Assembly (NCBI GenBank): GCA_002719955.1
Contig: PBFW01000056.1
Location: forward strand, 1 to 64,000
Source: Deltaproteobacteria bacterium
Lineage (GTDB): Bacteria > Myxococcota_A > UBA9160 > UBA4427
DNA length: 64,000 nt
Reading direction: 5' to 3'
A program made the position numbers and the translations under genes. The notes beneath the pieces are model-generated. The model saw nothing but the letters and a program-made list of their open reading frames with translations, made no database searches and was not told the origin of the DNA. This document shows positions 14,314 to 35,334 of this stretch, one piece after another (position 1 is the stretch's first letter; every line of letters begins with the position of its first letter).

Positions 14314-15758
14314 GTCGCGGCCTGCGTTGTCTGTTCGCCGCCGCGGCGCTTCTGCTCGCGCCTGCTTGTTCCCTGATATCCGGCTCGCTGCAGTTCAGTT
14401 CGCGCCCGGCGTGGGAGCTTCCCCCGCCGCCGCCCGTCGAAGGACCGGTGGTCGGAGACGGCACGCTGCATCGATCTGTGCTGCCCAATGGTCTCGAGAT
14501 CATGATTCTCGAGGACGATCGATTGCCGCGGGTCTCGCTCGGACTCGACTTGCGTCGCGGTGCGGGCAGCGTCGATCCCAGCCGAGCGGGTCTGGCGGCG
14601 ATCGCCACCGAGGTGATGCAAAGGGGTGCGGGCGACCGAGACGGGCTTGCGCTGGCCCAGGTCGTCGAGGATGCCGGGGCTTCGCTCTCCGTGTCTGCGG
14701 GTTGGGACACCACGGGCATCTCGCTCTCGGGATTATCCGAGGATCGCGCGCTCTTGCTCGAAATCCTCTCGGATGTAGCGCTTCGGCCGCGCTTCGACGA
14801 GGAAGAGTTTCGCAAGGCCGTCGCGGAACATCAGGCGGGGCTCGTGGGTGCGCAGGACGATCCGGCGACATTGATCAGGTGGCATACGCTGCGTGCGCTC
14901 TTCGAAGGCCATCGCTACGGATTGCCGCGCGGTGGAACGATGGAGACGATCGCGGGCCTGTCGGTCGCGGATGCGCGTGGCTATTGGACGGACCGCTTCG
15001 TGCCACGCAATACGATCTTCTGGGCGGTCGGTGATGTCGACAGCGAGAGGCTCGTTGCCGAGGTCGAAGGACTCTACGGTGACCTTCCGGATGTCTCGAC
15101 GATTGAGAATACGCCGCCCACACCCGAGAGAACTCCCCTGGCACGGCGCGTGATCGTCGTGGACAAGCCAGAGCTGGGCCAGGCTCGTATCGTGCTTGCC
15201 CACGAGGGAATCTCCCGAACCGAGCCCAAGCGCATCCCGATCGCCCTGATGAACGACGCGCTCGGCGGCAGCGGATTCTCGTCGCGACTCATGAAACGCG
15301 TGCGCTCCGACGAGGGACTCACCTATGGCATTGGCTCGGGGTATTCCCTGCGCGGCGTGCCGGGCCCCTTCTCGGTGTCGACCTTTACGCGGGTCGCGAA
15401 GGTGCGCGAGGTGATCGATCTCCTGCTCGAGGAGATGGAAGGGATTCGAGGCGAGCGGCCGATGACCGAGGAGGAACTCGCAAAATTCATCAGCTACAAC
15501 GTCGGGCGTTTTGGGCTCTCTCTCGAGACGAGCGGGTCGGTCCTGTCTTCGCTCGTGAACCTGCAGATCTACGGGCTTCCGAGCGATTCCCTCGACACCT
15601 ATCGCGGTCGCCTCCGGGCCGTCACCCTCGAGGACGTGCGTGAAGCCGCCGCGGATCATCTCCACCCCGATCGCGCCGCGATCGTTGTACTGGGCCCGTC
15701 CGAAATGCTGATTCCGCAGCTCGAGGGTCTCGGGCAGGTCGAGGTCTGGCAGCCCTAG
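14310..15758 (+). CDS. M16 family peptidase-like protein lacking the zinc motif (probable lipoprotein partner)
   Basis: The 482-aa protein has the same two-domain M16 fold as its upstream neighbour: VLPNGLEIMILEDDRLPRVS, RRGAGSVDPSRAGLAAIATE, and a C-terminal GSGFSSRLMKRVRSDEGLTYG. Where HxxEH should be it has AAIATEV, so it cannot bind the catalytic zinc. The N-terminus is a signal sequence ending LLLAPAC, a poor lipobox (Pro at -2) that could still allow lipid anchoring. M16B pairs of one active and one inactive subunit are common. Its TAG stop overlaps the stop of the convergent tpsA gene by 4 nt (shared CTAG). Confidence 0.9.
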   Translation: MSRGLRCLFAAAALLLAPACSLISGSLQFSSRPAWELPPPPPVEGPVVGDGTLHRSVLPNGLEIMILEDDRLPRVSLGLDLRRGAGSVDPSRAGLAAIATEVMQRGAGDRDGLALAQVVEDAGASLSVSAGWDTTGISLSGLSEDRALLLEILSDVALRPRFDEEEFRKAVAEHQAGLVGAQDDPATLIRWHTLRALFEGHRYGLPRGGTMETIAGLSVADARGYWTDRFVPRNTIFWAVGDVDSERLVAEVEGLYGDLPDVSTIENTPPTPERTPLARRVIVVDKPELGQARIVLAHEGISRTEPKRIPIALMNDALGGSGFSSRLMKRVRSDEGLTYGIGSGYSLRGVPGPFSVSTFTRVAKVREVIDLLLEEMEGIRGERPMTEEELAKFISYNVGRFGLSLETSGSVLSSLVNLQIYGLPSDSLDTYRGRLRAVTLEDVREAAADHLHPDRAAIVVLGPSEMLIPQLEGLGQVEVWQP

Positions 15759-18700
15759 CGTCCGAAGATGTCGAGAATATCGCTGCCCCTGACGTACCGC
15801 GACGGATGGATTGCCTCCGCGAGTTCCTCGAGGGTGATTCCATCGGGCCGGATCTGCTCGAGCCAGCCACGCTGGATTCGACGGAACTCTCCGGGGGAAA
15901 GCCCGAGTCGGCGGTGGTAGCGGAAGAGGGCGTCGAGCTGGTCGAGGGTCGTATAGGCCTCGAGAAGCGAGCTCGGACGGTTCTTCACGAAGCGGCGGAG
16001 CTCGAAGCCGATCACGCGGCGCGCGCGTGTCATTTCGAGGTATCGGTCGAGTGCGCTCTGGAGGACGTCTCGAACCTCACCCGTGCGTTGGCCGTCGGTT
16101 CCGAAGAGTTCTTCGTAGAGGGAGATCGCGGACTCGGCATCCTGTGGATCGAGGCGTGCGCCCGTGATCGCGACCTTGCCCCGCTTGGCTGAAGAGTCTT
16201 TGGAATGGGCGAGGTCGTCGATGACCGCGACCCCTTCGAGACGCGCGAGCAGCACTTCTGCGGGAGTGTCGTGGGCGTCGATCGCGAGCGACGTCAATCG
16301 ATCTGCGTTCGAGAGCGGCGAGGCCTCCCTGAATTTGCGCGAGGGGGTCGGGACGACGGTGGGGCCGAACGCACCGGGCAGCTGCGAGCGGGAGCTACCG
16401 AGCCCGAGGAGCGAGGGGACCCGATCGTCGATGCCGGTCCCGACGAAGGAAAAGTAGCTTTCGTCGATCAGGCCGCCGCTGGGCAGAATTGCGAGGACGG
16501 GAAAGCGACCGAGAAAGGTGGGGAGGGTCGGATCGAAGGGGTCCACGACCCCAAAACGTGGTTCCTTGCCGATCCCTTCGGCGGTCGGGGTCACCCCACC
16601 AAAGTCGATCATGTTGGCGAGAATCGTCGAACCGCCGTCCTGGGTGCTCGTCCCCCTCGGACCGAAGGTCGTGCCGGCATTGCGCTTCATGAGACCGATC
16701 TCGCTCGGGGGGGCCATGCCACCGATGATGAATTCGAGCGCGGATACGTCGCCGAGGGTCACGACCGCTCCCGGATGGTCGATTGTGATCCGCCCGCCTA
16801 CCGAGAGCCGCTCGCCCGATCCCATCACGAAAGGACCCCCCATCAGGCTCTCGAATTCGAGGTTGCCGCTGCTCTTGCCAATGGTGGCATGGGGGACGAG
16901 GTCGACACGGCCGGTCCCGTATTCGGCGAGTACGGCGACGATTCCGGTACTCGCCGTGCCGAGGTCGGGGGCGCTTCCGAGATCGTTGCGCAGGTCGGTG
17001 AGAAAGTTGCCGTCATCGGCATTCGCGGGATCGTCGGGCTCGTTCAGGGCGGCGGCCAAGAAGACGGTTTCGCCGTCGACCCGTACGAGTTGATCCGAAT
17101 CGATCGCCGTTTCCTGGACGCCATCGCCATCCCCCTCGACCATGGGATCATCTGAAGAGTCCACTCTGCGTCCGAACTGGACGGTCGCATCGCTGGCCGT
17201 GCTGTCCGAATCGAAGAGCACCCACAATCTTCCGAGTTGTTCGTCGGGGATCAGGGGCTCCCGGACGTCGGAGAGGTCGAAATCCGTGGAGGTTCCGATG
17301 TCCTCCTCGAAAAATATTTCTCCGCGCGCCTGGAGGATGAGGCCGGCATCGGTTTCCATGGAGACGCTGGAATCGCGGTAGATATCGTCGGTGAATCGGA
17401 TGCTGCGACCATTCGTGGAGAGCGTCTCCTCGAGCACGGTCTCGCCCGAGTAGCGCTGGTCCCCGCTCGTTTCGATCGTCAGATCATCGGCGGTCGGTAT
17501 CATGGGAGGGCCACCGGTTGCGGAGAAGGGAGTGATGGTGATCTTTCCTGCGCCACCCCCTGCTTCGAGGTCGAGGGAGGCGAGCTGAAGCGCGGCGAAG
17601 TCCGTTGCGTCGAGATCGGGCGCTGCGAAGTCGTCAAAGGTGTAGCCGGGGGTGAGCCCGGTCAATTGGATCAGGATATTTCCGTTCGGGTCGGCGACAC
17701 CACCGTTCGTGCGCACGATCAGGTTGCTGAATGAGGTTCCGGCGCGGACAGAGTCTCCGAGCACGAAATCGTTGCCTGTCGTCGTGAGTTCGATATCGAT
17801 CTGGGAGAGCGATTCTCGCAGGGTTTCGCTCTTCTCTCCGGTGAAGAAACTGAAGTCGCGTCTCAAGTAGCGGTCGGCTCGAACGAGCCGTGTGGACGAG
17901 AAATCGCCGGGTTGAAGGACGCGCACGATGGGTCGTTCGATCGCGTCGGGATCCGACCGAAGGCGGGCGAGGTGTTCGGGGAACTCGAGGCCTGTGAGAA
18001 CCGTGCCACCGACCAGCCGTAGATTCGGAGCGTCGAGGAAGAGTTCGCCCGCAACGCTCGTCCGGAAGGTGACGTCGTTCGACTCGATTCGAACTTGGCC
18101 GTCGAAGCCCTGTGGGCTCGAGGCGGCGAAGGGGTCGGCGAAGGTCGTGTCGACGATGACCTTGGCGTTTTCCGCGATTCGGCCGAGTATCAAGTGATCC
18201 GTCCAAGGCGAGATCAGATGTGGCGTGACCACGGTCAGCTCACCCTGGATCGATGAGAGATCGAGGGTGTTCCACTCGTCGGGGCGCGGGACGCCCGCGG
18301 CGGTGAGCGGAGTCAGAATATCTCCCTCGGCACCGGGGGTACTCAGGTCGAAGTCGCGGCTCTGCTGAACCGAAAAGAGCGATGTTTCCGAGTTCCCGCT
18401 GCGCGTGACGGAGGCGAGGCCTCTCAGGTCGACCTGGGCGAGGGCCCCTTGAACGATCTCGTCGCGTTTGCCGTCTGGCGTGCCGGTCATGTCCTCGTTG
18501 TCCACGTCGGGATTCGTAACGGTCTCGACGGGCCCAGCGGAGAGTTCGATTCGGTTGGCCATCAGGGTCGTGCTCGCGATGCCCTCGAATACGAGGTTGC
18601 CCATCGCCGCCGTCGGTGTGTAGGCGGTCGTCGGAAGGCCATCGACCAAAGCGGCCGCGAGGATGATCGAATCCTCTGAATTCATCGTCACGCCGTCCGC

Positions 18701-21700
18701 GACGGTGATCGACTCCGTCGTGTAGGCGCCGACATTGGCGAATTCGTATAGGTCGCCCGCGCCGCCAGCACCGAACAGGATGTCCCCAAGCAGGGGGGCA
18801 TAGGCACTTCCGAGGAGGAGGTTGCTGCCGCTGACGTTGTCGGGCGCGACCTCGGCCGATTCCTGGCGGCTGATGATGGTATAGGCGGTCGGAATCGCGG
18901 TTCCGTCCCGCTCGTCTTCGATGGAGCGTCGGAGGTTGCCCGAGATCGCGAAGCGGTCCGGGAGTTCGTCCGGGGTGACCTGACCCTCCTGGTCGATGAT
19001 GAGGGTGGTTGGGCCCCGTCCCGTCGTGAGGTCGAACATCCCTGAAACGCCATCGGTCTGGGACGCGGTGCTCAGATTGGTGGTCGTGGCGATCTCGTTC
19101 GTCGCATCGAAGGCTTCGATCAGCAGGCTTTCGGCGTCATAGGCGGAGTCGATCTGCAGACCCGCTGGCGGGGCGTCGGCGTCGAGTCCACCGAGCAGGA
19201 CCCGACCGGTGCCTACGGCGGGCAGGAGGGCGCCGAGAGTCAGCTCGTTGGCGCGAATTCTCAACTTGATTTCTCGCAGCGGATCGTCGAGCGCCTCCGT
19301 CGGCGTGAGGGTGAGGTCGCCGCCGTCGATCGTGAGCAGTTCGATCGTGTTGGCCTCGAGGATCAATCGAGTCTGGACGTCGGGATTGATCGGAAGCGGG
19401 CTGATCCGATCGCCGCTGCCGGGATCGAGGCTGGCGATCTCGAATTGGGTGATGTCGATGCTGCCGCCGTCGCTGCGGATGGCCAGGATATTGGGCAGCA
19501 GATCTGGAAGGTTCCCGATGAATTGAGCCTCCGTCGGGAGGTCGATCACCTGGATATCGTCGTCTTCCTGATAGACGAATATACGGTCCGTGACCGAGCC
19601 GACGGGGGAAAGGTCGAAGGAGGCCCCGCCGACGAGGATTCGGCCAGAGCTGTCGTTGCCGATTCCGTCGCTGGCGATCAATTCGATCCGGGGGGCGGTG
19701 ACGGTCGCGCCACTCCCGAAGGATAGGGTTCCGAGGCCGTTCATCGCGGCACGCAGCGTGACGCGCTCGCGGGCCTCGGCCGGGAGGCCGGTCGGGTTGA
19801 ATCGTTGGGCCAGGGTGTCGCTGAAGGTGAAGTCGCCGACGCCACCGAGTTCGATCGAGGGGCCGACGAAGCTGAAGTCGTCGCTGACCTGAAGCGCCGC
19901 GTCCACCCCCTGCAATCCGATCAGGGAGAGCGCGGTGTCGCGGAAGCGATCGCCGACCGCTTCTGTCGTCGATCGCAGGTTGATCGTTCCGAAATCCGAG
20001 CGCAACGCATAGGAGACGGGAGTGGCCGCTCCGACCCCGTCGAACGACGTGATCGTGCCGGCCGAGAAGTTCGCAAAAGTCGGGAGCAGGCCGAGGTCAT
20101 CGATCGCTGCGTCCTGCCGGAATTCGAAGGAGAGCCCGGTCGCACCGGTGCTCACGAAGTCGGCCCCCCCCGCCTCTCGGATCTGCACGTTCTGGACACC
20201 CGTGATCTTCGATCGGGTGGCGGCGTCGGTGTTCAGCGAGTCGCGCCCCGCGCCGGCGCGAAGCTCGAGATCATTCGCGGCCAGCGTCGTGGTCATCGAC
20301 CCCAGGAAGACCAGATCGCCAAAGCCGCTCGCGCCGGCCTGCAGCGCCAGTCGATCGCTCGATTGCAGGTCGACTCCGTCCGCGACGGTCAGGGTCCCAC
20401 TGTCCGCCGCCCCGTCGACGTCCGTGTTCCGGCCGGCCTGGAAGACGAGATCTTGGGCGAAGCTGATCGCGTCGGCCATCTCGGTCGTCACCGTCAGGTT
20501 CTGCGGCGTCGAGAGGGTCAGCCCGAAGACGTCAAACGCGCTGTCGCCCAGGAAACCGCCCGAGAAGATGATCGATTCCGGGTCGGGATCCACGGGGGGC
20601 GGTAAGAGGAACCCCCCGTTCAGTACGACCCAGCTGAGGCCGTTGTCATTCGTGCGGGTCGCGATCAGGTTGGGGTCGATGGCGATGTCGTTGCTCAGTC
20701 CGGCGGCGTCCTCGACGGTGAGCGTGCCGTCGCTCGATTCGAGCGTGATGCGCTGGCCCCTGTCACCGATCAGGGCGTCGGCAAAGGCACCGGTCGTCCC
20801 CCCCGTCCCCGCCTTCTGCCCGAAGAAGATCTCGCCCGGCGTGGTCGGCAGGGGTGCGGTGCCCCCGATGAGGAGGTCGCCGTCCTGCCGAATCGAGAGG
20901 ACCTCCGGGCGTTCGGTCCCATCCTGATCTCTCAGCTGGAGGCCGGCGTAGTTTCCTCGAGTCCTGCGCGAGTAGCCGAAGGCGTTGGGGATACCGGAGC
21001 CCACGGGGTCTTCGGTCTCTTCGAATTCCAGATTCGCGTTGACGGTCGTGCCGTCCCCGATCGAGATCGAGAGATCATCGCTCTGGAGCCGAACCCCGTT
21101 GGAGGCGATCATTCCCCCGCTGCCGTGGAAGGTGAGCCGGGTGTCTCGTTCGTCCGGCAACATCGCAGCGATTTCGGCTTCTTCGACGTCGCCGAGGAGG
21201 CTCGGGTCGGGGGCCACATTGATGCGGACCCTGTCGCCCTCGATCCGCGTGTTGGCATTGAAGGCGATCTGCCGACTGGCATCGAAGCGTACCTCCCCTT
21301 CGCTCGCGGAGGAGAGGTCGCTGGGATCGTTGGGATCGGAATCGATCCCGAGGTTGGATTCCAAGATGGTCGCGGTCGTCGTCCCGGACGCCGTGATCGT
21401 GACGAGATCGTTGTTCTCCGCTGTCGTGATCTCCCGTGAGGAGATTCGGATCCCCGCGGACGCGAGCGTCGTCGCCGCGTGGGTACCGATCGAGATCTGG
21501 CCCTGTCCATAGAGGTCCATCTCCGCGATGACGCCCGAGGCGTCGTGGGCCACGATCGATATCAGCCCGTCTTCGCCGGTATCGCCGCCGGTCGTGTCGA
21601 AGGTCCCATCGAGGGAGATCTGCTGGGTCGTGGCGGATCCGATCGCGAGGGTGCCGCCCCCGGTCGTGATCGCACCGGTCGCGGTGATCTCGCCGCCCTC

Positions 21701-24412
21701 ACCTCGGGTGCCGACCTCGACAAAGGTGATGTCGAAGGCCCCGTGATCGGCGAGCGCATCGACGCGGTGGGCGTCGATCGAGACGTTCCCGCCCTCGGAT
21801 AGGATCGATCCGTTGGTGATTTCGACCGAACCGGCGAAGGTCGAGTCGGGGATCCCGGCCGCGATCGCGATGTCGCCCCCGCCACTCATCAATGTTCCCG
21901 TGAGTTCGACGAGTCCGGTATCGATCGAAAGACGGTCGTTTCCGGCCGCGACCGTCGAGACGAGGAGTCCGTTGGCGATCAGCCTGATCTCGCCTCCGGT
22001 GTCCGGATCGTCGTCCGGTCGTGTCGTGTCGATCGTTCCCGCGATGCGAAGACTCGCGTCGGCGGTGGTCGTGATCGCGATGATTGCGGGCTCACCCGTC
22101 ATCGGGTCGATGATGGGTGCACCTGTGGTGGCGTCGATTTCGGTCTCGGTCCCATCGCGCGTCAAGATCTCGCTGCCGTGGGAGGTGTTCAGACTCCCCG
22201 CGATCAGGTCGACGGTGCCGCCGTCGGTTTCGATCGTGCTCGCCGCCGACTGGCTGACCGAGACGCCGGAGGCGATGAGTTGACCGCCTCCGGTTCGGAT
22301 ATTGGCGTCGATGTTGACGCTGCCCCGGAGCTGATCGGTGCCGAAGGCTTGATTCGCGTCGCGTTGGGCCTGGTCGTTGGCGCGGAACTCGAGCGCGAGC
22401 GATTGGTTCGGTGTCAGGGCACTCGACCCGCTCCCCACGCTGATGTCCTCGTTGACGAAGATGCTTCCCGCCGCGAGCAGCGTGAGACGTGCCGTCGTGC
22501 CCGGGAGGCTGTCGCTGTCGCTGATCACGATCGGTGCATCGACGGTGATGTCGCCGCGTCCACCCGCTGGAAGGTCTTCTTCACCGCTGTAGATGCCCGG
22601 AGTCGCTTCCGGATCGAAGGCCTCCGTCGAGAGCGTGATATTCATCCCGCTGGTGAGCGCGCGCGTCAGGAGGTCGACCGAAAGTTGATTCGGATTCTGA
22701 CCCATCATCGGCGGCGCGACGGTGCGGAGGACGTCGTCGAAGGCCGCGCTATCGAAATTCGGCGCCAGGATCACTTCGAGGGCGTGTTCCAGACAATTGC
22801 CGCTGGTGTCCGCGCAGGTGGAGTCCGTCAGGGCGGCCACGATGCTGATGGCATAGGGGTCGATCAGCCAATCGCCTCCCTCGCCGTTGGGCGCCGAAGC
22901 GTCCGGAGATTGCGTGATTTGAAAATTCGCGAGACCGGAGGTTTCGATGAAGCCGCCATTTCCCGCTTCCGCGCCGCCGCGGGCCGAGATCCCCCCCTCG
23001 ATCAGGGTGAGGTCCTCGGAAAAGAGGATGACGCGGCCGCCATCACCATCGCGCAGGGCGTCCGCGTGAACCTCGCTCGTCTGGTCCATCAGCAGGGCGC
23101 GCGCGCGCCGGAGTGCACCTTTGCCCTGCTCTTCGCCGCCGATCTGGATCGTTCCGCCGCCCGAATCTCCGGACGCGTCGATCGTGGCATCGGCGACGAC
23201 GATGTAGCCACCGGTGATGTCGATCTCGCCTCCGACTTCGCCTTCTCCGCGACCCGTCGCGTCCAGGTGGCCCGAGAGCTCGACGCGGCCCTCTTCGCCG
23301 CCTTCGATTTCGATCTTTCGGGCGACGATCGTGGGTTGCTCGCTCGAGGTTCCGGTGGTGCCCGTGCCCTGGCGGATTCCCCAGCCGAGGGGGTCCGATG
23401 CGGCCAGGCGGACGTGGCCGAGGCCGGCATTGATCTGACCGTGGTTCGCGACGCGATATTCGGGGTCGTCGGAGTCGGCACGCGCCTGGGCGGTGGCGTG
23501 GGGCAGGCGAAATAATACGGGATTGTCGAATTGGCTCACGTAGATCGCGTCGGCCCCGATCATCATCAGGGACCCGTCCGCGATTTCGATCTCACCATGG
23601 TTGGCCACCCGACTGCCAAGCAGAGCGGCATTCTGGCTTTCGAGGCGGCCGTCGTTGTCGACGGTCCCGTCACCGGACGCGACGAGGAAATTCACCGGGT
23701 TGATCAGGCTCTCCGCGATCGATTCGAGATCGGGGAAATGGATCGCCTCGGCGCCGAGAAGCAGAATGTTGCCATCGGGAGCCAGGATCTCCCCGCGATT
23801 GCGAACGCTGGTGCCGTAGAGGAGGATATCGGCCGTCGCGCGCATCAGACCTTGGTTCTCGACCGGCCCGGTGAGCATCAGCGCCGGGCCGTCCCGCTGG
23901 AGATCGTGGTTCAGCACGTCGGCGCCGACCGCGACGAGGGTGCCCACGTCGAGGATGGCTTCGCTGTCGACGAAAACGCCGAAGGGGCTCGCGAAAACGA
24001 TGGTGTTGTTGGGCCCTGAAACGACATGACCGTTGATGTGGGCGGAAAAGTCGCCACCGACATGATTCCAGTGGGTGGAGCCGTCGCTCACCAGATCGAA
24101 ATTGAGGGTGTGGTCGCTGGGCAGGTCGAGACCGCCCGTCCAGAGGGTCTGCCCGTTCTCCACGAAAGAGGTGATGGTCGTCTCACCCGGAAGCGTCTGG
24201 TCGATGACGCCATCGGTCAGCATCACGGCATCGTCTGCGGAAGGGAACGCGTCGCTCGCGAAGGCATTCGCCGGCGTCATCGCGATCAGGGCGACGACGA
24301 GAACACGGGCGACCCCGCGCTCGAATCGGCTGACGAGGCGGTCTGAACCCTCGCGCGACGCTTCTCTCGCGGCGTGCCGCGGCGACTCAGTAGAGAATGC
24401 TGAAGAGAACAT
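15755..24412 (-). CDS. Giant TpsA exoprotein (filamentous haemagglutinin-like, two-partner secretion)
   Basis: The product is about 2,885 aa. After a long basic n-region come a signal core (VLVVALIAMTP) and a cleavage-like ANAFA. The secretion domain follows: TITSFVENGQTLWTGGLDLP, TLNFDLVSDGSTHWNHVGG, then GPNNTIVFASPFGVFVDSEA. The last aligns with the usual NPNGIxF segment but has lost that motif. Most of the protein is parallel beta-helix sequence rich in Asp, Gly and Thr, with short repeats such as VANHGEI and GGG(T/D)(L/I)AI. The last 200 residues are helical and non-repetitive (LFRYHRRLGLSPGEFRRIQR), perhaps a cap or effector. It is made with TpsB, whose gene overlaps its start. The ATG at 24412 is chosen over a GTG at 24454. 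Function is probably adhesion or inter-cell contact; the target is unknown. Confidence 0.85.
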   Translation of the reverse strand: MFSSAFSTESPRHAAREASREGSDRLVSRFERGVARVLVVALIAMTPANAFASDAFPSADDAVMLTDGVIDQTLPGETTITSFVENGQTLWTGGLDLPSDHTLNFDLVSDGSTHWNHVGGDFSAHINGHVVSGPNNTIVFASPFGVFVDSEAILDVGTLVAVGADVLNHDLQRDGPALMLTGPVENQGLMRATADILLYGTSVRNRGEILAPDGNILLLGAEAIHFPDLESIAESLINPVNFLVASGDGTVDNDGRLESQNAALLGSRVANHGEIEIADGSLMMIGADAIYVSQFDNPVLFRLPHATAQARADSDDPEYRVANHGQINAGLGHVRLAASDPLGWGIRQGTGTTGTSSEQPTIVARKIEIEGGEEGRVELSGHLDATGRGEGEVGGEIDITGGYIVVADATIDASGDSGGGTIQIGGEEQGKGALRRARALLMDQTSEVHADALRDGDGGRVILFSEDLTLIEGGISARGGAEAGNGGFIETSGLANFQITQSPDASAPNGEGGDWLIDPYAISIVAALTDSTCADTSGNCLEHALEVILAPNFDSAAFDDVLRTVAPPMMGQNPNQLSVDLLTRALTSGMNITLSTEAFDPEATPGIYSGEEDLPAGGRGDITVDAPIVISDSDSLPGTTARLTLLAAGSIFVNEDISVGSGSSALTPNQSLALEFRANDQAQRDANQAFGTDQLRGSVNIDANIRTGGGQLIASGVSVSQSAASTIETDGGTVDLIAGSLNTSHGSEILTRDGTETEIDATTGAPIIDPMTGEPAIIAITTTADASLRIAGTIDTTRPDDDPDTGGEIRLIANGLLVSTVAAGNDRLSIDTGLVELTGTLMSGGGDIAIAAGIPDSTFAGSVEITNGSILSEGGNVSIDAHRVDALADHGAFDITFVEVGTRGEGGEITATGAITTGGGTLAIGSATTQQISLDGTFDTTGGDTGEDGLISIVAHDASGVIAEMDLYGQGQISIGTHAATTLASAGIRISSREITTAENNDLVTITASGTTTATILESNLGIDSDPNDPSDLSSASEGEVRFDASRQIAFNANTRIEGDRVRINVAPDPSLLGDVEEAEIAAMLPDERDTRLTFHGSGGMIASNGVRLQSDDLSISIGDGTTVNANLEFEETEDPVGSGIPNAFGYSRRTRGNYAGLQLRDQDGTERPEVLSIRQDGDLLIGGTAPLPTTPGEIFFGQKAGTGGTTGAFADALIGDRGQRITLESSDGTLTVEDAAGLSNDIAIDPNLIATRTNDNGLSWVVLNGGFLLPPPVDPDPESIIFSGGFLGDSAFDVFGLTLSTPQNLTVTTEMADAISFAQDLVFQAGRNTDVDGAADSGTLTVADGVDLQSSDRLALQAGASGFGDLVFLGSMTTTLAANDLELRAGAGRDSLNTDAATRSKITGVQNVQIREAGGADFVSTGATGLSFEFRQDAAIDDLGLLPTFANFSAGTITSFDGVGAATPVSYALRSDFGTINLRSTTEAVGDRFRDTALSLIGLQGVDAALQVSDDFSFVGPSIELGGVGDFTFSDTLAQRFNPTGLPAEARERVTLRAAMNGLGTLSFGSGATVTAPRIELIASDGIGNDSSGRILVGGASFDLSPVGSVTDRIFVYQEDDDIQVIDLPTEAQFIGNLPDLLPNILAIRSDGGSIDITQFEIASLDPGSGDRISPLPINPDVQTRLILEANTIELLTIDGGDLTLTPTEALDDPLREIKLRIRANELTLGALLPAVGTGRVLLGGLDADAPPAGLQIDSAYDAESLLIEAFDATNEIATTTNLSTASQTDGVSGMFDLTTGRGPTTLIIDQEGQVTPDELPDRFAISGNLRRSIEDERDGTAIPTAYTIISRQESAEVAPDNVSGSNLLLGSAYAPLLGDILFGAGGAGDLYEFANVGAYTTESITVADGVTMNSEDSIILAAALVDGLPTTAYTPTAAMGNLVFEGIASTTLMANRIELSAGPVETVTNPDVDNEDMTGTPDGKRDEIVQGALAQVDLRGLASVTRSGNSETSLFSVQQSRDFDLSTPGAEGDILTPLTAAGVPRPDEWNTLDLSSIQGELTVVTPHLISPWTDHLILGRIAENAKVIVDTTFADPFAASSPQGFDGQVRIESNDVTFRTSVAGELFLDAPNLRLVGGTVLTGLEFPEHLARLRSDPDAIERPIVRVLQPGDFSSTRLVRADRYLRRDFSFFTGEKSETLRESLSQIDIELTTTGNDFVLGDSVRAGTSFSNLIVRTNGGVADPNGNILIQLTGLTPGYTFDDFAAPDLDATDFAALQLASLDLEAGGGAGKITITPFSATGGPPMIPTADDLTIETSGDQRYSGETVLEETLSTNGRSIRFTDDIYRDSSVSMETDAGLILQARGEIFFEEDIGTSTDFDLSDVREPLIPDEQLGRLWVLFDSDSTASDATVQFGRRVDSSDDPMVEGDGDGVQETAIDSDQLVRVDGETVFLAAALNEPDDPANADDGNFLTDLRNDLGSAPDLGTASTGIVAVLAEYGTGRVDLVPHATIGKSSGNLEFESLMGGPFVMGSGERLSVGGRITIDHPGAVVTLGDVSALEFIIGGMAPPSEIGLMKRNAGTTFGPRGTSTQDGGSTILANMIDFGGVTPTAEGIGKEPRFGVVDPFDPTLPTFLGRFPVLAILPSGGLIDESYFSFVGTGIDDRVPSLLGLGSSRSQLPGAFGPTVVPTPSRKFREASPLSNADRLTSLAIDAHDTPAEVLLARLEGVAVIDDLAHSKDSSAKRGKVAITGARLDPQDAESAISLYEELFGTDGQRTGEVRDVLQSALDRYLEMTRARRVIGFELRRFVKNRPSSLLEAYTTLDQLDALFRYHRRLGLSPGEFRRIQRGWLEQIRPDGITLEELAEAIHPSRYVRGSDILDIFGR

Positions 24413-26429
24413 GGAGCTCACTCTGTCCCACGTTGGCACCGTTGGCGATGTCACCGTTCGTGTTCATGAGGGCCGTTGCCCAGTCGATGCGGGCGCGCAG
24501 GTTGGAGCGGATCTGTAGATCGGCCCCGACGCCGGCCCCGATCAAGGTCTGGTCATCCTCCGTCGCCCCCACCGAGACTCGATGCTGGTCGTTTCGGACG
24601 GCGTGGCCCGCATCGACGAAGGCGCGCAGGACGAGGTCCCAATCCGGTCGGCCGTAGACCTGTTGCGGGGCCGCTCTGAAGTCGCCGATCAAGGGGAGGC
24701 GAAGAGGTTGTCGCAGGACGGGCAATGCGCGCGGAAAATGGAAGCGATATTCGGCCGAGGCGATCGCGATGGTGTCTCCCACGGCGACGGATTGGCTGTA
24801 GCCGCGCACGCTGTAGAGCCCCCCGATCGAGCCATTCGACTGGGGAATCAGGCGGTAGTCGAAAGCGTATTGTCCCCGAATCCCGAACGAGATCTCGTGC
24901 GCGAGCGTCGAACTCGAATGGGTCGAAGGGTCGCGCCAGGCCTCGGGCCGGAGGAGAGGTTCGAGGAAGGTCGAGTAACCGAGATTGAAATTTACGATAG
25001 CGTATTTCTCGTCCGCCTCGTCGCGACCGAGCGCGTCCAGATTGCCGGAGTCGATCTGGTTGATCTGGCCGTTCGCGGATAGATCCAACTGAAAATTGGA
25101 TATCTGGCTGATGCGCTCGGAGTGGACGCCGATTCGCGGGATCACGAGCAGCGCGTCTCCACCCGCATCGACCGTTCGGTTGTTGACGTCCAGATCTCGG
25201 AAGGAGAGGCCACCATAGAAGTCGATGAAGAGATTGCGAAGTTGGAAGGCCTCGTAGATGAATCGCCCACCGGCCTGGTATTGGGCGCTCGTGATGCGGT
25301 CGTTCGCGAGGCCGACCTGAGTCGCAGACCGTCCCGCCTGTGACTTGCTCATTGCGAAATTGACTTCCCAGCGCAGGCGTTCGATACCCCACCAGGGGAT
25401 CTCGTCGCGCGGGAGCCACTCGATCCACTCGGGATCGCCGCGGCGTTGCGACATCCAGGCCGGGCGCTCCTTCCCGAAGAAGGGGGCCTGATAGCGCGCA
25501 CTCACGGCGTTGACCTCGTCGAGGCTGACGTTCAACCAGTCGATCGAGAGGACATCGTCGCGGTTCGTCAATTGGCGATGGGTGTAGCCGAGGCGGGTCT
25601 GCCAGGGATTCGTGCGGCGTGTACCGGTGTCCGTGACCTGCGCATAGGCGTACCAGGGTTTCGATTCGAGCACGCGATAGTCGAGGACGACATCACCTGG
25701 GTCTTCGCCGGGGGAGAGGGCGGCTTCGACGCGTCGGCCCGAGTGGCGATTGAGTCGAAAGAGATACCTCTCGAGCGCGTGCCGGTCGACCAGATCCGTC
25801 GAGTCCTCGTCCTCCAGTTCGGCGGGCTGGAGTGGCGAAGATTCGCGAATACGTGTGTGGACCTCGTTGTCGATCTTCCAATCACCCTTGACCCGGTCGC
25901 CGACGGCGATGGTGCGGATCCTCGAGATGCGGCCGACGCTGATGACGATGGTGAGGTTCTCGCGATCCGGCGGCCGTAGGTCGCGTTCGTTTTCGAGATC
26001 GAAATCGCGCGCCGAGGGACGCACATCGACGCCGCTGAGACCGGCCTCATTCAGGCGGGCGACGAGTCTGCCGAGGACGCGGACGAGCCCGCCCACTTCC
26101 AGATCGAGAACGGGACTCTTCGGCCCGCCCACCTCGACTCTTTCACCTGGCTCGTCTTCGCGGGGTGCATCCCAGCCGACCTCGGTTCGGCGAAGTTCAA
26201 CGGTGATCGGCGTGATCTCATCGAGCGCCGGCTCGCTCGTGCGCTCACGCGCGTACTCGAGTTCGAGTTCACCGATTCGAAAAGTCTTCGGACCCTCGTC
26301 CTCGGGGAGCAGAAGCACCTGCCCCGAGGCCGAAAGAGAGGAAGAGAGGAGGAAGACGATGACCAACGCCCCAGCGAACCGCGCGGATGCGGTTCGGGTC
26401 GGGGACGGGAATTCCGGCAGCCAGGACAT
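24387..26429 (-). CDS. TpsB outer-membrane transporter (ShlB/FhaC/HecB family)
   Basis: The 680-aa protein has a signal peptide (FAGALVIVFLLSSSLSA then SGQ). A proline/acid-rich region with POTRA-like repeats follows (RVLGRLVARLNEAGLSGVDV, ISRIRTIAVGDRVKGDW and ALERYLFRLNRHSGRRVEA). The C-terminal 16-strand beta barrel carries the family motif VRGY in GGLYSVRGYSQSVAVGD and ends in the aromatic FSILY. It recognises the TPS domain of TpsA in the periplasm through its POTRA domains and exports it. The first POTRA is longer than usual, with an extra acidic segment (DAPREDEPGERVEV). The ATG at 26429 starts the signal peptide; no clear Shine-Dalgarno is seen. It overlaps tpsA by about 26 nt. Confidence 0.88.
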   Translation of the reverse strand: MSWLPEFPSPTRTASARFAGALVIVFLLSSSLSASGQVLLLPEDEGPKTFRIGELELEYARERTSEPALDEITPITVELRRTEVGWDAPREDEPGERVEVGGPKSPVLDLEVGGLVRVLGRLVARLNEAGLSGVDVRPSARDFDLENERDLRPPDRENLTIVISVGRISRIRTIAVGDRVKGDWKIDNEVHTRIRESSPLQPAELEDEDSTDLVDRHALERYLFRLNRHSGRRVEAALSPGEDPGDVVLDYRVLESKPWYAYAQVTDTGTRRTNPWQTRLGYTHRQLTNRDDVLSIDWLNVSLDEVNAVSARYQAPFFGKERPAWMSQRRGDPEWIEWLPRDEIPWWGIERLRWEVNFAMSKSQAGRSATQVGLANDRITSAQYQAGGRFIYEAFQLRNLFIDFYGGLSFRDLDVNNRTVDAGGDALLVIPRIGVHSERISQISNFQLDLSANGQINQIDSGNLDALGRDEADEKYAIVNFNLGYSTFLEPLLRPEAWRDPSTHSSSTLAHEISFGIRGQYAFDYRLIPQSNGSIGGLYSVRGYSQSVAVGDTIAIASAEYRFHFPRALPVLRQPLRLPLIGDFRAAPQQVYGRPDWDLVLRAFVDAGHAVRNDQHRVSVGATEDDQTLIGAGVGADLQIRSNLRARIDWATALMNTNGDIANGANVGQSELHVLFSILY

Positions 26430-32006: not shown

Positions 32007-33512
32007 ATGAGTCGTGACCCCAGCCGCATCCCCGTCCTCGTTGGAATCGGGCAATCGATCGAACGCGATGGGGTCACGAACGTCGTCGAGTTGGCGTACC
32101 GCGCGGCGGGCGCGGCGTTCGAGGATGCGCCCGGTCTGGTCGACAAGATTCAGCGCTTGACGATGGTGGCCGTTTCGTTTTCTCCGGTCGGGTTGGCTCC
32201 CGCGACCGAGGTGGCCGAGCGACTCGGGCTCGCGGGCATCGCTTGCGAAACGACGACGCCGGGCGGCAACACCCCACAGTGGCTGATGAATCGGGCCTGC
32301 CAGGAGATCGCGCAGGGAGACCTCGAGGCGACCCTGATCGTCGGTGCCGAGGCGACACGATCGATGAGACTCGCGGATCCGGGCAGCGATTTCCTGAGCG
32401 CCGCCACCCAGGATCGATCGCAGGACGAGGGGCCCAGGGACACCGTGGTCGGCGCCTCGATTCGGGGCATGCTCGGCCCCGCGGAGGTCGAGGCGAATCT
32501 GCTTCGTCCCTCGGATACCTATCCGATCTTCGAGAGCGCACTCGCCGCGAAACTCGGGACCTCCCCCGAAGAATCGCGCCAGCGAATCGCCGCCTTCATG
32601 AGTCGCTCGAGCGAAGTGGCGGCGAAAAATCCCTTCGCGTGGTTCCAGCAGGCTCGCAGTGCCCAAGAGATCGCCGAGGCATCCCCCCTGAATCGCATCA
32701 CGGCGGAGCCTTACACGAAATGCATGAATAGCTTTGCGAACGTGGATCAGGGGAGCGCGCTGCTCGTGACGAACCTGGCGATCGCCCAGGAAACCGGTTT
32801 GGCCGATCAATGCGTATTTGCCTGGTCGGGTGCGACCAATGCCGAATTGCTTCCCTCCGCGCGCCCGGATCTCGGGGCATCCCCGGCCATTCGGGCCGCC
32901 GGAAAAGCCACCTTCGCTGCCGCGGGCGTCGGGCTCGATGAAATCGATTTCATCGATCTCTACTCGTGCTTCCCGGTCGCGGTCGAAATCGGCGCGGCGG
33001 AGATCGGACTCTCCTGGGACGATACGCGTGGGTTGACCCAGACCGGTGGGATGTCTTTCTTCGGCGGCCCCGGCAACAACTACGTGAGTCATGGGATCGC
33101 CGCGGTCGCACTTCGCTTGCGCGAGGCGGGTGGGACGGGTGGCGGACGCCGACTCGGATACGCCTCGGGCAATGGTGGCGTCCTCTCGAAGCATTCCCTC
33201 GGAATCTATGGCAGCGAGCCGCCGCCCTCGGGCTTCGTGCTCGCGGACACGTCCGCCGAGCAGGCAGAAATCGGAGTCTCCGCCCTCGATGTCGTACATG
33301 CGGCCGAGGGCGAGGCCAGGGTCGACGGCGCTACGGTCGTCTACGACCGCGTAGGAAATCCCTCCGCGGCCCCGATCATTGCGAGTCTCTCCGACGGGCG
33401 TCGCGTCGTGGCGGTGGCGAGCGAAGAGACGCTTCCGACACTCGTCGGAAAGACGCTTGTGGGTGAGACCGTTCGCGTCACCGGCGCGCATCCGCCGGTC
33501 TATTCGATCTAG
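32007..33512 (+). CDS. Thiolase-like protein (TLP1 type, acetyl-CoA acetyltransferase family) lacking the nucleophilic Cys
   Basis: The 501-aa protein has the two halves of a thiolase fold: IPVLVGIGQSIERDG, RAGAGAAF-type helices, IDFIDLYSCFPVAVEIGAAE and NYVSHGIAAVALRLREAGG with the conserved His. About 120 residues beyond the thiolase core form an OB-like domain, as in thiolase-like protein type 1. Where thiolases have the nucleophile (V-N-x-x-C-x-S-G) it reads CETTTPGGNTPQW, with Thr/Pro in place of Cys, so classical thiolysis is unlikely. It may bind acyl-CoA or act as a non-catalytic partner. GGAG lies 9 nt upstream of the ATG. Confidence 0.82.
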   Translation: MSRDPSRIPVLVGIGQSIERDGVTNVVELAYRAAGAAFEDAPGLVDKIQRLTMVAVSFSPVGLAPATEVAERLGLAGIACETTTPGGNTPQWLMNRACQEIAQGDLEATLIVGAEATRSMRLADPGSDFLSAATQDRSQDEGPRDTVVGASIRGMLGPAEVEANLLRPSDTYPIFESALAAKLGTSPEESRQRIAAFMSRSSEVAAKNPFAWFQQARSAQEIAEASPLNRITAEPYTKCMNSFANVDQGSALLVTNLAIAQETGLADQCVFAWSGATNAELLPSARPDLGASPAIRAAGKATFAAAGVGLDEIDFIDLYSCFPVAVEIGAAEIGLSWDDTRGLTQTGGMSFFGGPGNNYVSHGIAAVALRLREAGGTGGGRRLGYASGNGGVLSKHSLGIYGSEPPPSGFVLADTSAEQAEIGVSALDVVHAAEGEARVDGATVVYDRVGNPSAAPIIASLSDGRRVVAVASEETLPTLVGKTLVGETVRVTGAHPPVYSI

Positions 33513-34110
33513 GCGGATCTCCAGGGCCGGCGTCGATCGCCACCGCGTGCACGACGAATCGCATCGGTCCGCCGGGCACGATCGCGTCGAAGGGAAAACA
33601 TGTGATCAATGTCAGCTCGGCGCGGCCGGTTCGCTCGAGCAGATCGACCCGTGATTCGTGGACGATGGCCATCGTTTCGACCCGGTAGCGAGTCACTCCG
33701 TCCAGCGCTTCGACGACGATTTCGTCACCGCGATCGAGATCTTCGAGCGCTGCGAAATGGGTGTCGCGATGGCCGGCGAAGACGACGTTGTCCGCCTCCC
33801 CCGGACGGGCGCTCGCGGCCACGTGGGCCGGTCCGAAGGCGAGGGATTGACCACTCGCGCCCGCGAGCACGTAGAGCATTCTCCCGCCCCCGGGCAGCTG
33901 GAGTCGGGCAATGGGCCAGATGTCGGCCCCGGGCCACGGTCGGAGCTCGGTCCCTCCGCCGCACATTTCGTCCCAGGTCCTCGCGATCAATACCTGCGCC
34001 GCCCACGCCTTGGCCGGGATCCAGAGACCCCAGCCGACGAATGCGATACCCAGGAAGGCGAGGGCGGAGACAGCGAGTCTCGCCGTGTCCGGTCTTCGTC
34101 GCCTGTTCAT
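33478..34110 (-). CDS. Class GN sortase
   Basis: The 210-aa protein has one N-terminal membrane anchor (RLAVSALAFLGIAFVGWGLW) and the sortase beta-barrel. The catalytic triad is His114 (FAGHRDTHF), Cys171 in LTLITCFPFD and Arg184 in GGPMRFVVHA. This matches the class GN sortases of Gram-negative marine proteobacteria, each of which normally has one dedicated substrate encoded next door. Here the start codon overlaps the end of that substrate's C-terminal sorting signal by 4 nt, but the substrate gene is disrupted. Its stop lies within the last codons of the convergent thiolase-like gene (35-nt overlap). Confidence 0.87.
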   Translation of the reverse strand: MNRRRRPDTARLAVSALAFLGIAFVGWGLWIPAKAWAAQVLIARTWDEMCGGGTELRPWPGADIWPIARLQLPGGGRMLYVLAGASGQSLAFGPAHVAASARPGEADNVVFAGHRDTHFAALEDLDRGDEIVVEALDGVTRYRVETMAIVHESRVDLLERTGRAELTLITCFPFDAIVPGGPMRFVVHAVAIDAGPGDPPRSNRPADARR

Positions 34111-34729
34111 CGGCGATCCCGTTGGGTGGGGCCGACCTTCGAGCGGAGGTCCGAAGCGCCTCGTCTTGCGAAGGGCCAGGTGAGGGCAGCGCCGCCTAGC
34201 AGCAGGCTTCCGATCGAAACGAATAACGCGGCCGGTGTCCCACCCTGAGGGAGTCGGCCGATCAGGACCCTCGCCACCGGCTGGGAAATCGAACTCCTCT
34301 GGGTCGCCTTCCCCACTCCGCCCCCGGTCAGATTCGGGCCTTTCGCCCCTCGGCCCTGGCCCTGCGATAGGCCGATCGGGCGCGTGCGCGTTCCGCGACT
34401 TGTCCCTTGATCAGGCGATCTCCAATTCGCATTCGAAGGGAATCGACTGCGGAGCCCTCGGGAAGCGGAAAGACGTAGACGCCCGCGACCCAATTCTCGG
34501 TCGGATTGGTGAATCTCTGGGTGACATGGGTTCGCGCGATCAGGCCCGCGACCCGGATCTCGACATCCGTTGCGAGCAGCGGGGCTTCCCGGAAGCCATC
34601 CTGCGTCTGGAAAAGGAGTCCACCCGCGCCCATTTCGTTAGGGTCGCGTCGCGCTCCGAGTTCGTGAGGTGGGGACGCGGCGGTCGGAAGGGCGAGAAAG
34701 AGGAGCAGCAGGGGCAGGAGGAAGGGCAT
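34107..34729 (-). pseudogene. Class GN sortase target protein remnant: VIT-domain start and C-terminal sorting signal, middle lost
   Basis: From the ATG at 34729 the strand encodes a signal peptide (MPFLLPLLLLFLALPTAA). The first part of a VIT domain follows (EIRVAGLIARTHVTQRF, then NPTENWVAGVYVFPLPEGS and RIGDRLIKGQVAERARARSA), and it stops at 34328-34330 in the middle of the domain. In another frame, about 75 nt on, lies a complete sorting signal: LPQGGTPAALF, a membrane segment (VSIGSLLLGGAALTWPF) and RR, ending at 34107. Intact homologues are about 700 aa, with VIT and von Willebrand A domains between these ends. So roughly 1.5 kb including the whole VWA domain appears deleted, with a frame change at the junction. 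A functional mini-protein via frameshift is possible but unlikely. Confidence 0.75.
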
Positions 34730-35256
34730 ACGCGTCTCGTTCTCCGGGCGAGGCTCGACAGTCGCGACCGTGGGGCCGGACGTGCGGGCGACGATGGAGG
34801 CGCACGCGAGGACCGGGTCTTTTGTGTTAGGCGACTTGGAGCCGGCGAACACCGGGTGTCGTTCGGAATCTGAAGCGAATGACCCCGCGTCGCACAGCGT
34901 GGTTCTGTTGGACCCTCAGTGGATGAGGGGCGGGCGATGGTTGAACGGAAGGGTTCGTCGAGGGTTTTGCCGGAATCGGGATCGACTTCCCGGAAGGAGG
35001 CGCCGCAGACGCCGGGCGCATCGTCCGTGTCGGGCGCCGTCCAGACCGTTCGCGTCGGCAGATCGGCCCGCCGGTCAGCGACCTCGAAAGAGAGCCCGCC
35101 CTCGCTTCCTTCGTCTCCGAAGGAGCCTCCCAGGAGGCAGGCTCCGCCGAGGCTGATCTCCCGAATCGTCGTCTCGATCTTTCGACCGTCGATTTCGAGA
35201 TGGGCGGGCAGGCTGTCGCAATGTCTGGGGAATAAACCTGGGCCGCCGCCGGGCAT
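34540..35256 (-). CDS. PilZ-like domain protein (uncertain, possibly damaged)
   Basis: The N-terminal 95 residues resemble PilZ: PAHLEIDGRKIETTIREISL followed by GGACLLGG gives the (D/N)-x-S-x-x-G-like motif (EISLGGA), then GGLSFEVADRRADLP, RTVWTAPDTDD and CGASFREVDPDSGKTL. The RxxxR half of the c-di-GMP site is not visible at the N-terminus. The first ATG of the frame lies within the etfA terminator hairpin, and no ribosome binding site supports the inner ATG at 35256. The C-terminal half runs through low-complexity sequence and overlaps the start of the sortase-target remnant in another frame, so the true stop may have been lost with that deletion. Treat both ends as unreliable. Confidence 0.4.
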   Translation of the reverse strand: MPGGGPGLFPRHCDSLPAHLEIDGRKIETTIREISLGGACLLGGSFGDEGSEGGLSFEVADRRADLPTRTVWTAPDTDDAPGVCGASFREVDPDSGKTLDEPFRSTIARPSSTEGPTEPRCATRGHSLQIPNDTRCSPAPSRLTQKTRSSRAPPSSPARPAPRSRLSSLARRTRRVCPSSCPCCSSFSPFRPPRPHLTNSERDATLTKWARVDSFSRRRMASGKPRCSQRMSRSGSRA

Positions 35257-35295
35257 CCACTGATGAGTCGTCGCCTGCTCGGGGCAGGCGCACCG

Positions 35296-35334
35296 AAAAA
35301 AGCGGAGGCCCACGGAATGAATCCATGGGCCTCC
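35296..35334 (-). terminator. Rho-independent terminator downstream of etfA
   Basis: GGAGGCCCA (35304-35312) pairs exactly with TGGGCCTCC (35326-35334). The loop has a further GGA/TCC pairing. On the minus strand the hairpin is followed by a run of six T (A-run at 35296-35301). It lies 38 nt after the etfA stop. Confidence 0.9.

Follow-up and report, generated by a model that had tools for sequence, protein, structure and literature searches.

Class GN sortases are poorly described, and their role in Gram-negative bacteria is given as unknown (PMC10581121). A further point of reference is srtA of Shewanella oneidensis, which we take as a likeness at the level of a Gram-negative sortase gene, irrespective of class. 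Deletion of srtA reportedly did not raise current density (PMC8176591), so that test assigns the gene no role. At the level of protein families, class GN sortases (TIGR03784) are paired with a 'marine proteobacterial sortase target protein' (TIGR03788), and the accessible parts of the literature yielded no report of such a pair in a half-lost state. Here we analyze a stretch of bacterial DNA of 64,000 nucleotides (the window, to which all coordinates refer) that shares with the TIGR03784/TIGR03788 pair a sortase scoring over the family cut-off, an adjacent and overlapping partner gene, a VIT-domain start and an LPQGG-type tail. It differs from TIGR03788 in that the partner matches only 81 of the 629 model positions and is frame-broken. 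The reading that we favor, at a probability of about 0.8, is that a real and probably young deletion of about 1.6 kb broke the substrate gene and orphaned the class GN sortase.

The gene at 33478-34110 on the reverse strand encodes a predicted class GN sortase of 210 aa, an assignment drawn from alignments, from its TIGR03784 score (194.2 bits, against a cut-off of 158.25) and from its being the only match to PF04203 in the window genome. Its catalytic residues, given by a sequence-only reading of this DNA as His114, Cys171 and Arg184, are all kept and match every relative that reaches those columns. In an alignment of 35 rows, the window's included, the His is found in 35 and the Cys and Arg in 34 each, the one gap at the Cys and Arg columns belonging to a row truncated where its contig ends. 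An AlphaFold2 model of the protein (mean pLDDT 84.6) predicts a single long helix at the N-terminus and, after it, strands matching sortase folds. Profile and fold searches matched solved sortases of classes D, C, E and A, all of them from Gram-positive hosts, among them 2ln7, 4d70, 8t28 and 9iok at about 26% identity; the best of these matches, 2ln7, aligns from profile position 64 onward.

Located after the N-terminal helix and ahead of the first strand, a P-W-x-W-A-D-T-W-P-like segment is conserved among class GN sortases; we presume it to resemble the lid of class C sortases. In the window this segment occupies 33913-33939 on the reverse strand (sortase residues 58-66) and departs at two positions. 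Residue 61 is Gly where all 38 other rows have Trp (34 in the main alignment and four further relatives, one row being a duplicate), and residue 64 is Ile, against Thr in 33 of 34 other rows. On the strength of the alignment, Trp61Gly may at most hint at a change in the sortase. The broader proposition that the window sortase is an outlier at conserved sites was rejected: when 33 rows were each left out of the count in turn, it departed at one of 24 invariant and three of 38 nearly invariant columns, within the range of the other rows, which reach 3 and 5.

The sortase ATG at 34110 lies over the old substrate stop, with the 4-nt overlap (34107-34110, reverse strand) that the sequence-only reading had described. 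Of 33 distinct relatives, 25 have a candidate sortase start that lies 4 or 1 nt within the substrate stop, which suggests translational coupling of the pair.

The adjacent target gene is still present as a remnant, but it is broken. Its front part (34328-34729, reverse strand) comprises a signal-peptide-like start, judged by eye, and most of a VIT domain, matching positions 1-81 of 629 in TIGR03788 and 3-81 of 111 in PF08487. The score of 111.1 bits against TIGR03788 falls far below the family cut-off of 551.65. The VIT domain is thus truncated, as had been claimed, although nearer three quarters than half of it is kept. The VWA domain that follows the VIT domain in the closest relative (locus L031 of genome G001, whose sortase is 67% identical to the window's) and in L035 is absent from the window locus. 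Farther downstream lies a complete C-terminal sorting signal (34158-34292, reverse strand), with LPQGG, a hydrophobic stretch and an Arg cluster. It scores E 8.9e-20 against a tail profile of 13 rows of which the window's own tail is one. This tail is out of frame with the front part, as the earlier reading had it, and belongs to an ORF at 34107-34493, its frame being open for 176 aa.

Alignment of the locus to L031 with blastn, the comparison proposed for placing the junction, shows homology running to 34337 and resuming at 34292. Both sides match one L031 gene in the same order at 73-74% nucleotide identity, and the 44 nt of the junction (34293-34336, reverse strand) stand in place of 1647 nt in L031. 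The central segment is therefore missing as stated, with a net deficit of about 1.6 kb and not 1.5 kb. In L031 it corresponds to substrate residues 134-682, which take in the end of the VIT domain (at residue 163) and the whole VWA domain (323-473), confirming the loss of the latter. The front ORF meets a stop at 34330-34328, 6 nt past the end of homology. Since the remnant yields at most a 133-residue fragment with no sorting signal, the substrate gene is most likely a pseudogene.

A second lesion, independent of the deletion, affects the start of the gene. In L031, L033, L034, L035 and L032 (five of the seven relatives compared, L044 and L036 failing to align at this point), a conserved purine-rich run resembling a ribosome-binding site immediately precedes the substrate start. 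The corresponding site in the window (34733-34735, reverse strand) holds no start codon. The next in-frame ATG follows two codons later, at 34729, so the altered start need not harm the gene. In L044 the substrate start, judged by eye, seems to be non-ATG. Over 213 columns the substrate leader and start (34713-34922, reverse strand) show 74% conservation with L031, and L044 has a stretch in common with them as well; this conserved leader is perhaps a regulatory region.

The arrangement was compared with congener loci (L031, L033, L034, L035 and L044) and with L032, a locus of genome G027 from another genus. The gene order in the genus runs through a metallo-beta-lactamase-fold gene, ETF beta, ETF alpha, a PilZ gene, substrate, sortase, a thiolase-like gene, EF-P and a patatin-like gene, the place of PilZ being seen in L033, L035 and L044 and some loci being cut by contig ends. 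In L032 the pair occupies another setting, where no match to ETF or EF-P was found. A sortase match was found in five of eight congeners (in one of them truncated at the end of its contig), and the remaining three lack both genes, so that the nine sampled genomes of the genus comprise five with the pair, one with a sortase and a broken substrate, and three with neither. The latter three (G006, G007 and G008) are 86-91% complete and carry neither sortase nor target; a weak TIGR03788 match in G008 covers model positions 266-438 only, as in other VWA proteins. At their ETF loci, ETF alpha is followed by EF-P within 0.6 kb in G006, and other genes run up to the contig end in G007. In G008 the PilZ gene adjoins the thiolase gene with no pair between them, both being separated from ETF alpha by other genes. 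ETF alpha is 79-83% similar in these three genomes, against 85-90% for the full-length matches of the other congeners. The pair may have been lost from this place in G006-G008 or may never have been present there, the latter because these genomes are the least similar in ETF alpha and because the pair sits elsewhere in G027.

Beyond the genus, a class GN sortase over the cut-off was found in 22 of the 90 genomes of the class, the window's included, and sampling the phylum more widely, with 377 genomes, gave the same 22 and no others over the TIGR03784 cut-off. A TIGR03788 match above its own cut-off, sought in these 22 genomes and in the three congeners with no sortase, accompanies the sortase in 21 of the 22 (in G026 only just over the cut-off); the exception is the window genome. 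We also examined 34 related loci (33 of them distinct), made up of 17 of 25 matched relatives and 17 further loci; the eight matched relatives left out have sortases below the class GN cut-off. In all 34 the substrate ORF, measured from stop to stop, runs to 659 codons or more, and a short in-frame form of the substrate, which would have pointed to a conserved compact arrangement, was found in none. The description of the locus as an unusual snapshot therefore holds insofar as it is the sole case among the 22 sortase-bearing genomes of the class; it is tempered by gene decay being ordinary and by three of eight congeners having neither gene.

Lineage-specific amino-acid changes, polarized with congeners and compared between the window and its sister G001, number three in the window and two in G001 for the sortase (149 codons), and six in each for the front remnant (111 codons). 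The thiolase-like neighbor has 14 in the window and seven in G001, and the sorting tail of the window has none in the 21 codons compared. Over those 149 codons of the sortase, neither relaxed selection nor acceleration was detected against G001. Decay of the sortase, if begun, would on this comparison be very recent or not measurable. The deletion itself is probably young, because these counts show no acceleration.

These observations fit a two-gene system in the ancestor. Its first product would have been a secreted protein with VIT and VWA domains and an LPQGG-type tail; the dedicated class GN sortase would have come second, its translation probably coupled through the short overlap. The sortase would have cleaved the tail and fixed the substrate protein to the envelope. 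A deletion of about 1.6 kb would then have taken out the stretch from the end of the VIT domain through the VWA domain and the linker, putting the tail out of frame, and the normal substrate start codon would also have gone in the window lineage. Coupling, if it mattered, would be lost as well, because translation of the front remnant would stop at 34328 and leave 217 nt up to the sortase start. The sortase, still intact in frame and in its catalytic residues, would be left with no recognizable substrate and presumably with no use, and would be likely to decay in turn, following the dead substrate. The notion of a dedicated sortase-substrate pair breaking down is thus borne out by the central deletion relative to L031, and what the locus most likely presents is ordinary gene decay caught half-way, with no new mechanism.

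An assembly error is improbable. The contig could have lost the middle of the gene in assembly, or could represent a deletion allele of a minor strain, while the population carries an intact substrate. It would suit this that the window genome is a draft bin (5.85 Mb in 77 contigs, 94.03% complete) with 8.6% contamination and that the sortase shows no relaxed selection. Set against this, the junction lies inside a contig of 137,010 bases (C56), and in the five congeners the longest words common to both breakpoint regions measure 6-8 nt, those common to the window's left arm and the congeners' 3' linkers 6-9 nt. Such words are shorter than any usual assembly k-mer and, by our estimate, at about chance level for these lengths. 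No long direct repeat was found at the breakpoints in the five congeners, and with shared words this short the collapse of a long repeat by the assembler is unlikely. A search of the window genome with the L031 substrate did not find the lost piece on any other contig: it returned the two flanks on C56, a VWA protein of 30% identity on contig C52 and one match at E 0.13. A dropped segment would also leave the altered start codon unexplained.

A sortase redirected to anchor other proteins, which the earlier reading offered as one option, appears very unlikely. The kept catalytic residues and the lack of acceleration would suit it, and the change before the first strand of a Trp shared by all other rows could alter specificity. 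Against it, a six-frame search of the genome with the 13-row tail profile gave no second sorting tail among the 150 of 173 candidates scored, the next best reaching E 0.54, and with all 131 candidates scored none besides the local tail reached E 0.5 or better, so that the search for other LPQGG-type C-termini came back empty. At E values below 0.001, the same profile recovers a tail in 20 of the 22 sortase-bearing genomes, 13 of these tails being in the profile by construction. For the nine genomes whose tails lie outside it, seven were found, those of G035 and G037 being missed. Not one of the 22 genomes showed a second tail at this level, with the candidates capped at 150 for 14 of the 25 genomes covered. 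The window genome likewise has no match above cut-off to the general LPXTG_anchor model, but this control is weak because the model also failed on the local LPQGG tail. All of these tail searches would overlook a substrate whose tail is unrelated, yet with both the lost piece and a second sorting tail not found in the genome, the idea that the sortase serves others is left with no support.

In a variant that we consider doubtful in the extreme, the orphan sortase is kept while changing specificity, as the altered W-x-W-A-D segment might suggest, and would act on an unrecognized tail or alone as a protease. If true, this would break the one-sortase-one-target rule of class GN. Hardly credible is a mini-substrate made by ribosomal frameshifting, with the VIT part joined to the tail: the reading frame of the tail stays open from 34637, through much of the front ORF, and the 21 tail codons compared are free of lineage-specific changes, but the front ORF contains no X XXY YYZ slippery heptamer, none of the 34 related loci has a short form and the substrate start is altered.

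With an orphaned sortase beside a broken substrate as the preferred reading, the presence in the genus of the pair (five of nine genomes), of half a pair (one of nine) and of neither gene (three of nine) suggests that the class GN system is dispensable and that the substrate can go first. The genus thereby offers a natural comparison (pair, half pair, none) for the role of class GN sortases.

Several further features of the class and of the window may be recorded. Eight genomes of the class (G009, G011, G012, G020, G021, G051, G052 and G079) contain a different, lower-scoring sortase; these proteins (L023, L029 and L100-L105) score 62-98 bits against TIGR03784 and have open frames of 178-257 aa. 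Directly upstream of the substrate in the window, a PilZ domain (34957-35214, reverse strand; PF07238, 29.2 bits against a cut-off of 22.5, residues 34-119) lies within a mechanical ORF at 34540-35313, the ends of the gene not being fixed. This domain recurs at that place in L033, L035 and L044, and G008 retains it beside the thiolase gene despite having no sortase pair; a c-di-GMP link of the PilZ gene to the sortase system is possible. Elsewhere in the window, a single mechanical ORF of 2899 codons (15755-24454, reverse strand) possibly encodes a very large protein.
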